A stretch of 64,000 nucleotides of DNA from Acuticoccus kalidii (lineage in GTDB: Bacteria; Pseudomonadota; Alphaproteobacteria; Rhizobiales; Amorphaceae), in assembly GCF_021556395.1 (NCBI RefSeq), contig NZ_JAKGCS010000033.1, positions 323,392-387,391 on the forward strand. The letters run 5' to 3'. Of this stretch, positions 51,218 through 53,966 are shown piece by piece; the stretch's first letter is position 1, and the number at the start of each line of letters is the position of its first letter. The notes under the pieces are model-generated. The model saw nothing but the letters and a program-made list of their open reading frames with translations. It searched no databases and had not been told where the DNA came from. The position numbers and the translations under genes are program-made.

Positions 51218-52912
51218 ATGAAGGACGCTGCGCGCCCGACCTTCACCGAGCTTTTCACGCCGAAGCTCGTCACCGTATTGCGGGAAGGCTACGGCCTTTC
51301 CAACTTCCGCTCCGACGCGCTCGCCGGGCTGACGGTCGCCATCGTCGCGCTGCCGCTGTCGATGGCGATCGCGATCGCCTCCGGCGCGAGCCCCGCCCAG
51401 GGGCTCTATACCGCGATCATCGGCGGCTTCTTCGTCTCCGCGCTCGGCGGTAGCCGCTTCCAGATCGGTGGCCCGGCCGGGGCCTTCATCGTCCTCGTCG
51501 GGGCGACGGTCGACGCGCACGGGATGGACGGGCTGATCCTCGCGACGCTGATCTCGGGCCTCGTTCTTGCTGCGATCGGCTTTTTGCGGCTCGGCACCTA
51601 TATCAAGTTCATTCCCTATCCGGTCACGGTGGGCTTCACCGCCGGGATCGCGGTGATCATTTTCGCGAGCCAGATCGCGCCGCTTCTCGGCCTGTCGATC
51701 GCTGGGGAGGAGCCGCGCGCGCTCCTCGACAAGCTTCCCGTCCTCTTCGATGCGCTGCCGACCATCAATCTGCCGACGGTGGTCGTCTCGGTCGCGACGA
51801 TCGCCATCATCGTCGGCCTCAAGCGCTATCAGCCGCGCTGGCCGGGGATGCTCGTCGCGGTCGGAGCGGGCGCGATCGCGATGGCGCTGTTCGACCTTCC
51901 GATCGCGACGATCGGCAGCCAGTTCGGCGGCATCCCGATGGGGCTGCCGGCCCCGCACCTACCGACTTTGTCGTTCGAGAAGGTAGTGGCGGTTCTGCCG
52001 AACGCGCTCGCCTTCGCGCTCCTCGGCTCGATCGAATCGCTCCTCTCCGCCGTCGTCGCCGACGGCATGACCGGCCGGCGGCACCGCTCGAATTGCGAGC
52101 TCGTCGCCCAGGGTGTCGCAAACGTCGCCTCGAGCCTCTTTCACGGCATCTGCGTCACCGGCACAATCGCCCGCACCGCCACCAATGTGCGCGCCGCCGC
52201 CCACGGTCCGATCGCCGGGATCCTGCATGCCGCCTTTCTCCTCGTCTTCATCGTCGCGGCGGCGCCGCTCGCGGCCTATATCCCCCTCGCATCGCTCGCC
52301 GGTGTCCTCGCCGTGGTCGCCTGGAACATGGTCGAGAAGCAGGCCTTCATCACCCTCGTGCGCGCCTCGTGGGGCGATGCCGCGGTACTCCTCGTAACCT
52401 TCGGGCTCACCGTCTTTCGCGACCTCACGGAGGCGATCGTGGTCGGCTTCGCGCTGGGATCGGTCCTCTTCATCCACCGCATGTCGAAGACGACGGCGGT
52501 GGAGACCGCACCTTTCGTGACCGAGGACCAGGCCGACGCCGAGGGGGGACGCACACCCTATCGCGAGGCGGAGGCGACCGACCCCGATATCGTCGTCTAT
52601 CGGATCACGGGTGTTTTCTTCTTCGGCGCGGCGGCCTCGATCGGCTCGGTCCTCGACCGGATTTCCGACCGCAGACGCGCCTTGATCGTCGACTTCGCGG
52701 CGGTCCCGTTCGTCGATTCCACCGCGGCGAACACCATTGAGGGGCTTGCCCACAAGGCGAAGCGCCAAGGGGTCGCGCTCATCCTGACGGGCGCGTCGGC
52801 GGCGGTGCGCAAGGCGCTCGAGGCCCACGGGCTGACGCCGCCATTCGTGCGGTACGAGGCGAGCGTCGAGCTGGCGCTCGCGGCGCTTCATCCGCGAGCG
52901 GAAGCGGCCTGA
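51218..52912 (+). CDS. SulP family anion transporter with STAS domain
   Basis: A 564-residue SLC26/SulP-type permease. The membrane domain covers about residues 20-430. It begins NFRSDALAGLTVAIVALPLS and contains GGSRFQIGGPAGAFIVLVG near 81-99, the anion-binding region. A C-terminal STAS domain (about 450-555) has LIVDFAAVPFVDSTAANTIE near 489. Sulfate, bicarbonate or dicarboxylates are possible substrates. It converges on the SDR gene, with the long palindrome between them. Confidence 0.93.
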   Translation: MKDAARPTFTELFTPKLVTVLREGYGLSNFRSDALAGLTVAIVALPLSMAIAIASGASPAQGLYTAIIGGFFVSALGGSRFQIGGPAGAFIVLVGATVDAHGMDGLILATLISGLVLAAIGFLRLGTYIKFIPYPVTVGFTAGIAVIIFASQIAPLLGLSIAGEEPRALLDKLPVLFDALPTINLPTVVVSVATIAIIVGLKRYQPRWPGMLVAVGAGAIAMALFDLPIATIGSQFGGIPMGLPAPHLPTLSFEKVVAVLPNALAFALLGSIESLLSAVVADGMTGRRHRSNCELVAQGVANVASSLFHGICVTGTIARTATNVRAAAHGPIAGILHAAFLLVFIVAAAPLAAYIPLASLAGVLAVVAWNMVEKQAFITLVRASWGDAAVLLVTFGLTVFRDLTEAIVVGFALGSVLFIHRMSKTTAVETAPFVTEDQADAEGGRTPYREAEATDPDIVVYRITGVFFFGAAASIGSVLDRISDRRRALIVDFAAVPFVDSTAANTIEGLAHKAKRQGVALILTGASAAVRKALEAHGLTPPFVRYEASVELALAALHPRAEAA

Positions 52913-52999
52913 CGGCGGACGTGGCCGAGGGGGGTCTCGAGAAGGTGATGGGTGCGGGACGGCCGGAGCGCTCCGACGTCACCAAGAAACAGGGGGAGC

Positions 53000-53156
53000 G
53001 CCTGTTCCTCGGAGCCCGCCATCGCTGATCGATGCCCTGAGACGGATGGCGGCCGGGCGCAAGGCACGCGCCGCTGCGCGTCGCTCTTCGGCCTTGCCCC
53101 CGACCGCCATCCGCCTCTGATCGGGCATCAGCGATGGCGGGCTCCGAGGAACAGGC
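53000..53156. repeat. long palindromic element (30-bp perfect arms, imperfect extension)
   Basis: The arms 53000-53029 and 53127-53156 are perfect 30-bp inverted copies (outer end GCCTGTTCCTCGGAG). They continue inward for about 36 bp with several mismatches (GGATGGCGGCCGGGCGCAAGGC against GGATGGCGGTCGGGGGCAAGGC), leaving a central loop of about 25 nt. The element fills the 307-bp gap between two convergent genes. It could be a palindromic repeat/MITE, a non-coding RNA or a giant terminator; no target-site duplication is evident. Confidence 0.85.
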
Positions 53157-53219
53157 TAAGCGGCGCCCGTGTTTCCGGGGAGGGGGCGAGGCCGTGCCCC
53201 TCAGGGGGCGGCGGCGCCG

Positions 53220-53966
53220 TTAGACGAAGCCGCGCTCTGTGAACGCGTAGGTGACACCGTTCTCGGTGAAGGCGGGGACGCACATCGCGGCGACCAGCGG
53301 GGCGACGGCCTCGGGCGGCTCCAGCGTGTTCGGATCCTCGCCGGGGACGGCAGCGGCGCGCATCCGGGTGCGGAGCGGGCCGGGGCTGAACAGATTGGCG
53401 CGGATCGCGGTCGAGCCGGTTTCCGCGACATAGGTTTGCACCAGCGCGTTGAGCGCGGCCTTCGAGATCGAATAGGCGCCCCAATTGGCGCGCAGCTTGG
53501 TCGCGGCGCCGGAGGTGATGAAGACGCAGCGCGCAGCGTCGGAGCGGCGAAGCGCCGGGTCGAGCGTGCGGATGAGGCGCCAGTTCGCCGTGAGGTTCAC
53601 GTCGATCGCCTCCTGCCAGACCTTCGCCGGAATATGGGCGAGGGGGGAGATGCGGCCGAGCACGCCGGCATTGCCGACGAAGACATCGAGCTTGCCCCAG
53701 CGTTCGAAGATGGAGGCGCCGAGACGGTCGATGCCTTGCCCGTCGGTGAGGTCGAGCGGGACGAGGGTGCCTTCGCCGCCGATCGCCTTCAGCTTGTCGT
53801 CGAGGGCTTCGAGATCCTCGATCTTGCGGCCGACGGCGATGACGTGCGCGCCATGGCGGCCGAGCTCGAGGGCGATCTGCTCGCCGATCCCGCGCGTTGC
53901 GCCGGTGACGAGGGCGATCCTGCCGCCCAGCGGCGACAGGTCGAAGGTCGCGAGCGGATCGCTCAC
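53220..53966 (-). CDS. SDR family oxidoreductase (purF-linked)
   Basis: A 248-residue short-chain dehydrogenase. The cofactor motif TGATRGIG lies near 21-28, GNAG near 99, the Ser in FITSGAATKL near 148 and YSISK near 161. IAVGRK after beta-2 suggests NADPH (basic residues). It starts at GTG 53966, overlapping the purF stop as GTGA; a longer frame into purF is less likely. A SDR in this position after purF is familiar from alphaproteobacterial genomes; its substrate is unknown. Confidence 0.92.
   Translation of the reverse strand: MSDPLATFDLSPLGGRIALVTGATRGIGEQIALELGRHGAHVIAVGRKIEDLEALDDKLKAIGGEGTLVPLDLTDGQGIDRLGASIFERWGKLDVFVGNAGVLGRISPLAHIPAKVWQEAIDVNLTANWRLIRTLDPALRRSDAARCVFITSGAATKLRANWGAYSISKAALNALVQTYVAETGSTAIRANLFSPGPLRTRMRAAAVPGEDPNTLEPPEAVAPLVAAMCVPAFTENGVTYAFTERGFV

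Follow-up and report, generated by a model that had tools for sequence, protein, structure and literature searches.

The locus described here raises the question of what a palindrome of 157 bp represents when it lies between two convergent genes of Acuticoccus kalidii. The initial annotation had seen in it a repeat element, a MITE remnant or a structured RNA. Analysis of the window (the whole stretch of 64,000 nucleotides that was analyzed) confirmed the perfect inverted arms of the palindrome, as positions 53000–53029 (GCCTGTTCCTCGGAGCCCGCCATCGCTGAT) are the exact reverse complement of positions 53127–53156 (30/30), and also confirmed that the arms of 53000–53156 continue inward with mismatches. 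That the neighboring genes are convergent was likewise confirmed, these being a SulP permease (+) and a short-chain dehydrogenase (−). The apical loop of the hairpin had been put at about 25 nt; it is ~4 nt and lies beside an asymmetric 9-nt bulge. The features of the locus are as follows:

51218–52912, plus strand: SulP sulfate permease with a STAS domain; neighbor, 3' end towards the tail
52959–53219, minus strand: whole repeat unit, the block common to the second copy on contig C23 of the A. kalidii genome (G000)
52969–52999, minus strand: conserved 3' tail, holding b and a GGTGA...GAGC motif
52982–52993, minus strand: segment b, CCTGTTTCTTGG, near-copy of a and alternative partner of a'
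53000–53016, minus strand: segment a', foot of the 3' arm, GGCTCCGAGGAACAGGC, complementary to a and to b
53000–53156, minus strand: 157-nt hairpin; the selected strand, by G-U/A-C asymmetry, is the minus strand of the window, with its 5' end at 53156
53033–53122, minus strand: inner stem, variable in sequence from copy to copy with complementarity kept; CAAGG/CCTTG tip conserved
53140–53156, minus strand: segment a, foot of the 5' arm, GCCTGTTCCTCGGAGCC
53157–53219, minus strand: weakly conserved 5' leader, its GCACGGCC opposite GGCCGT at the 3' end of the unit
53220–53966, minus strand: short-chain dehydrogenase; neighbor, 3' end towards the 5' side of the unit

Fold and anatomy of the repeat unit

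The fold of the hairpin is far stronger than expected by chance. The minimum free energy of 52990–53166 was −131.9 kcal/mol, compared to a mean of −84.9 (sd 4.5, z −10.4) for 200 dinucleotide shuffles, none of which was as low as the real sequence. The 157-nt hairpin is not directly followed by a T run on either strand, as an intrinsic terminator would be. At a loose threshold, Rfam returned only animal miRNA models and one lncRNA model, all under their gathering scores, and these matches were rejected as chance matches to a long G+C hairpin. The similarity of 53000–53156 to MIR1437, for example, scored 56–62 bits against a gathering score of 168, and long G+C hairpins attract miRNA models.

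The conserved feature proved to be longer than the palindrome, as it includes the 3' tail at 52969–52999 (minus strand). In the sense direction (window minus) the order is a weak leader, a, the variable inner stem, a', a short spacer, tail b (consensus CCTGTTCYYTGG) and then TGA...GAGC. Asymmetric internal loops of the inner stem are conserved among copies, and units of the family are about 200 to 260 bases in size. The window copy and the C23 copy were 95.8% identical over 263 aligned columns and 98.6% over a 210-bp core. The ends of the block that these two copies have in common carry GCACGGCC and GGCCGTGC, which are decayed in other copies, and it is possible that GCACGGCC facing GGCCGT is a short terminal inverted repeat. 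Subfamilies with changed arms occur, the CCTGATCG and TCTGTCCT types among them, and tail b changes together with the arm in every one. At two loci in Albimonas sp. CAU 1670 (L172:19319-19479 and L173:13976-14135) the interior of the hairpin apparently has the reverse orientation with respect to the tail, as though the hairpin had turned over between its two arms.

Family members and distribution

The proposal that the palindrome belongs to an element family, and is not a chance palindrome, was borne out by copies in its own and in related genomes. In the A. kalidii genome (5.59 Mb) blastn found seven copies, with the remainder beyond the C23 copy being 77–84% identical, and there were blastn matches in four of the seven relatives in the same genus. 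A covariance model had matches in all eight Acuticoccus genomes including that of A. kalidii, two of them weak: strong full-length copies were found in G001, G002, G004, G005 and A. kalidii, G003 and G007 gave weak or partial matches, and the copies in G006 belong to a second subfamily. Copy number among the Acuticoccus relatives ranges from one weak match to dozens. About ten second-subfamily copies (arm GCCTGATCG) lie on one 109.5-kb contig of G005 (C12; L126–L128), at a density far above the rest of that genome; genes on this contig include GH8 hydrolases, RmlD and a polysaccharide pyruvyl transferase.

A search of 84,980 species genomes for an exact 28-base pattern from the arm matched 25 stretches, which were in Acuticoccus, Albimonas, Mameliella and Maliponia only. 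The latter three genera belong to the Rhodobacterales, and the distribution of the repeat is therefore patchy across orders. An exact tail pattern matched 8 of 390 genomes of Rhodobacterales, in three of which there are real elements (Albimonas pacifica, Maliponia and G828). The other five look like chance matches: by eye there was no hairpin upstream, and the covariance model had no match in the one designated G481. In a class-wide search with the covariance model, limited to eight candidates per genome and so saying nothing on absence, 1 of 385 genomes was positive, that of A. kalidii itself. There was no match to the repeat in a phage collection, and in viral contigs the arm pattern had no matches while the four tail-pattern matches had no support from the covariance model.

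In two Albimonas genomes, the 1.26 Mb analyzed held 42 copies, or about one per 30 kb (one of these, lying across two stretches, was positioned with the help of the whole-genome match list). Extrapolation from this density gives roughly 190 copies per Albimonas genome, and a whole-genome search produced at least 150 matches in each of the two, with both strands counted. Overall, the family appears to be undescribed, with members dispersed over intergenic positions of a few marine bacteria that are unrelated to one another.

Selection on a folded single strand

Comparison of the copies revealed that compensatory change is common. An alignment of 40 distinct copies (A2, hand-picked for diversity from 63 copies, these being 69 minus six degenerate, truncated, duplicate or chance rows; model R1 was built from 30 of the 40) had 97.3% of 2,075 cells paired, and 31 of 52 pairs with change on both sides. 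None of 500 shuffles did as well, shuffle tests being inflated in general by kinship of the rows. When the partners were shifted by one to three columns, pairing fell to 40–45%.

The pairing is also asymmetric between strands. On the window minus strand there were 127 G-U pairs versus 4 A-C mismatches. As this first pair set came from folding the minus strand, the count was repeated with pairs taken from folding the opposite strand, a control biased in the opposite direction, and G-U remained in excess (84 versus 4; 24 versus 3 in Albimonas). Symmetric mutation without strand selection predicts equal numbers of G-U and A-C, so that the excess of G-U means that a folded single strand has been kept. 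However the neighboring genes were oriented, the excess was present, even for copies antisense to both of them (19 versus 1), and the choice of strand is therefore not due to read-through from a neighboring gene. The structure of the repeat is under strong, strand-specific selection.

The suggestion of a structured RNA in the initial annotation stood insofar as selection acts on the structure of one particular single strand; whether this strand is RNA or single-stranded DNA is indistinguishable here. Since a G-U pair has almost no cost in RNA, RNA offers the simpler reading and is the more likely form of the selected strand, with single-stranded DNA being possible.

An alternative helix formed by the tail

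Outside the palindrome lies tail b, a near-copy of a, and either of the two can pair with a'. At four variable positions in 102 elements, the pairing of b with its own a' was 0.909, compared to 0.767 for shuffled b and a maximum of 0.801 among 2,000 shuffles. These were 102 of 103 elements (40 + 42 + 21; one failed the arm expression), and at least two Albimonas copies enter twice, via A2 and via contigs. At position 9, a forms a Watson-Crick pair with a' in 95 of the 102 elements while b forms a G-U pair with a' in 71, which indicates that b is not a plain duplicate of a but a weaker, wobble partner of a'.

Within A2, two-sided change was seen in 30 cells of the b:a' helix, where shuffles gave 8.6 (0/500 as high), although the number of pairs with two-sided change was not above that of shuffles (4 versus 2.9, 102/500 as high). 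Since kinship of the rows inflates the shuffles, the sliding control is the better guide for this helix, and in it 90.3% of cells were paired in register versus 37–59% when shifted. Such covariation indicates that two mutually exclusive helices, a:a' and b:a', are maintained.

These observations bear on whether the arms are complementary purely through an effect on DNA, i.e., are kept so by template switching without having any function. Quasipalindromes undergo correction during replication, and the occurrence of hairpin interiors in reverse orientation to the tail is in keeping with such a process. Correction predicts perfect arms and no strand bias, however, whereas G-U far exceeds A-C, the asymmetric internal loops are conserved, and b covaries too despite being outside the palindrome. 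We consider this explanation highly improbable.

Placement of copies relative to genes

None of the 42 Albimonas copies is within a called gene (genes were called with a codon-usage caller written for this analysis). Only 4 of the 42 are in divergent gaps, compared to 111 of 377 copy-free gaps of 150–3000 bp (p 0.006). In Acuticoccus, 30 of the 36 copies with a called gene on the tail side face the 3' end of that gene, and no copy among the 35 with both neighbors called sits in a divergent gap. Orientation in tandem gaps had no consistent preference (16 versus 8 in Albimonas; 5 versus 10 in Acuticoccus), and neighboring transcription consequently does not explain the choice of strand.

On the four Albimonas contig stretches 32 of the 42 copies are on the minus strand, a count that is non-independent as sites are shared. 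No replication-strand bias was detectable by GC skew, and the skew does not explain this excess. A second short repeat, AAGCCCGCCCGCAGGGCGCC or a near-variant, was noted 3' of several Albimonas elements and may be a terminator-like hairpin.

Site history and sequence history

Synteny between the two Albimonas genomes extends over long stretches, at 81–93% nucleotide identity per block. Eighteen of the 42 element rows represent 11 comparable sites; the 24 rows lacking clean synteny on both sides were unscored. Seven of the 11 sites are filled in both species, in the same orientation in 7/7, and four are filled in one species only.

Copies at orthologous sites were no more alike than others, their identity being 0.809 versus 0.8075 for random cross-species pairs (p 0.47). 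Agreement of the 5' stem halves was 57% at orthologous sites, 63% between genomes and 68% within genomes, and stem-half identity in the seven orthologous pairs was at most 0.75. Of 421 pairs within genomes, 14 had near-identical stem halves (≥95%), versus 2 of 433 pairs between genomes. From the lack of added likeness at orthologous sites and the near-identity within genomes, copying between loci of one genome seems to outrun descent at the locus, with seven sites being a small sample.

One of the singly filled sites has, in the other species, an allele shorter by about 300 bp. At two singly filled sites the other allele appears to consist of the tail only, in that a 5' flank motif adjoins b and the hairpin is missing; such alleles are suggestive, as the 3' flank aligns well and the 5' flank poorly. 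At the site in the window, none of the seven other Acuticoccus genomes had a copy beside the orthologous dehydrogenase gene.

Stable positions and orientations, strand-specific pairing, and intergenic copies that are rare in divergent gaps would all fit an RNA element that is useful to the host, such as a transcription-end hairpin, an mRNA stabilizer or an RNase III site. Such an element would have been domesticated at gene ends and would be non-mobile, with its dispersed copies exchanging sequence by ordinary gene conversion. This would leave the patchy distribution (one exact pattern turned up real copies in 3 of the 390 genomes from a single order) and the range in Acuticoccus from one weak match to dozens of copies to be accounted for, and it sits poorly with the inconsistent orientation relative to genes and with a hairpin that has no T run after it. 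We regard it as a possible, if unlikely, explanation.

Maintenance and proposed spread of the repeat

We favor, as fairly probable, the explanation that this is a non-coding, non-autonomous dispersed repeat whose minus strand functions as a folded single strand in which b competes with a for a'. Pairing of a with a' would close the long hairpin, and tail b would compete for a' via a weaker, wobble-rich helix. Recognition of the folded strand by a mobilizing or recombining enzyme would then allow copies to spread and to overwrite one another, and the host presumably tolerates them mainly at the 3' ends of genes, away from shared promoter regions. Copies may also serve their neighbors as 3'-end hairpins. 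The stable positions of copies count against this explanation, as they are not easily reconciled with free transposition.

If the repeats were gene-less cassettes, this would account for the constancy of sites and orientation, the exchange of stems, the alleles reduced to a tail, and the way in which a, a' and b covary. In that case b would be a fixed docking site, and hairpins from a to a' would be excised or exchanged by structure-specific recombination as one folded strand, a' with a or with b making the same double-stranded site in two ways. To this we attach a low probability.

Two enzyme families, Y1_Tnp and RVT_1, were searched for in genomes with the repeat. PF01797 (Y1_Tnp, IS200/RAYT) was not found in any of the 8 Acuticoccus or the 4 other repeat-bearing genomes, several of which are drafts, and the positive control was matched in 5 of 14 genomes. 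This argues against a REP/RAYT or IS200/IS605-type element whose single-stranded hairpin is the substrate of a Y1 HUH transposase, despite a similar outline (strand-specific hairpin, intergenic, high copy number) and the hairpin-less alleles; we disfavor such an element as very unlikely. RVT_1, in a search with a positive control, was found in only one of nine element-bearing genomes, that of A. pacifica (G443), and was not found in the other eight, including Albimonas sp. CAU 1670 (G444) and A. kalidii. A retroposed, SINE-like RNA copied by reverse transcriptase, which a structured single strand with an RNA-like wobble pattern might otherwise bring to mind, is accordingly the hardest of all to credit. 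Nor was the idea of a MITE remnant substantiated: the few boundaries that were inspected showed no target-site duplication, the direct repeats a and b differ systematically, and the structure is maintained rather than decayed.

For the favored dispersed repeat, the presence of many copies without a Y1 transposase, and with reverse transcriptase in one genome only, points to another mobilizer or to a conversion process. Most bacterial palindromic repeats are known as sequences only. The present repeat provides a clean evolutionary test of the strand and of the pairs, shows an alternative helix beyond the palindrome, and separates the history of sites from that of sequences.

Comparison with known systems

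No description of the family was found in the literature that was searched, mostly outside subscription journals, and a prior description is possible. The genome paper of A. yangtzensis (PMC5747140), in the portion available, mentions CRISPR repeats only; a survey of REP sequences (PMC12306157) names neither Acuticoccus nor Albimonas; and Rfam has no family that matches the repeat at gathering score.

The repeat is multicopy, shorter than ~300 bp, non-coding and intergenic with a long stem, as are repeats of the YPAL/ERIC kind. YPAL/RU-2, the Yersinia palindromic sequence, is about 168 bp, intergenic and not A+T-rich, has internal inverted repeats, and occupies filled and empty sites between relatives, according to the excerpted part of its description (PMC2229807). 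It shares with the present repeat its length, intergenic location, lack of A+T-richness, internal rather than terminal inverted repeats, and filled and empty sites, the latter being seen in Albimonas at 4 of 11 sites. The likeness is one of description; the taxa differ, and that part of the source makes no mention of a tail-arm helix or strand asymmetry. ERIC (IRU/RU-1), in the excerpts of PMC2229807 and PMC2267715, is about 127 bp, palindromic and intergenic, folds as RNA, and has TA termini and a 7-bp TIR. Judged by those excerpts, the present repeat is likewise palindromic and intergenic; it differs in that 5,426 E. coli genomes gave no match to its unit.

GANTC, the CcrM methylation motif, occurs in 39 of 42 Albimonas copies (107 sites in stem and tail versus 23 in shuffles) and is depleted in Acuticoccus (5 of 28 copies, with 5 sites versus 14 expected from shuffles). 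The CIR repeats of Caulobacter and Brucella are intergenic with stem-loops and a GANTC motif, as excerpted from PMC2229807. The present repeat resembles them as an alphaproteobacterial intergenic repeat with stem-loops, and is unlike them in that GANTC is not conserved throughout, given the few Acuticoccus copies that carry it.

With REP/BIME elements it has in common dispersed extragenic palindromes in what is, by extrapolation, more than 100 copies per Albimonas genome, but it is much longer than those associated with RAYT, and a Y1_Tnp gene was not found in the 12 genomes. Integron attC sites fold strand-specifically, are flanked by direct repeats and leave a single-site remnant after loss, and in this they are similar to the repeat. 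Unlike attC, there is no gene cassette, and the core boxes look different by eye.

On the best reading, the repeat belongs among the non-coding palindromic repeats of the YPAL/ERIC kind, and its architecture is bistable and strand-specific. Its kind is known; as far as we have searched, what is new is the tail that makes it bistable, the strictness of its asymmetry between strands and the uncoupling of site from sequence.
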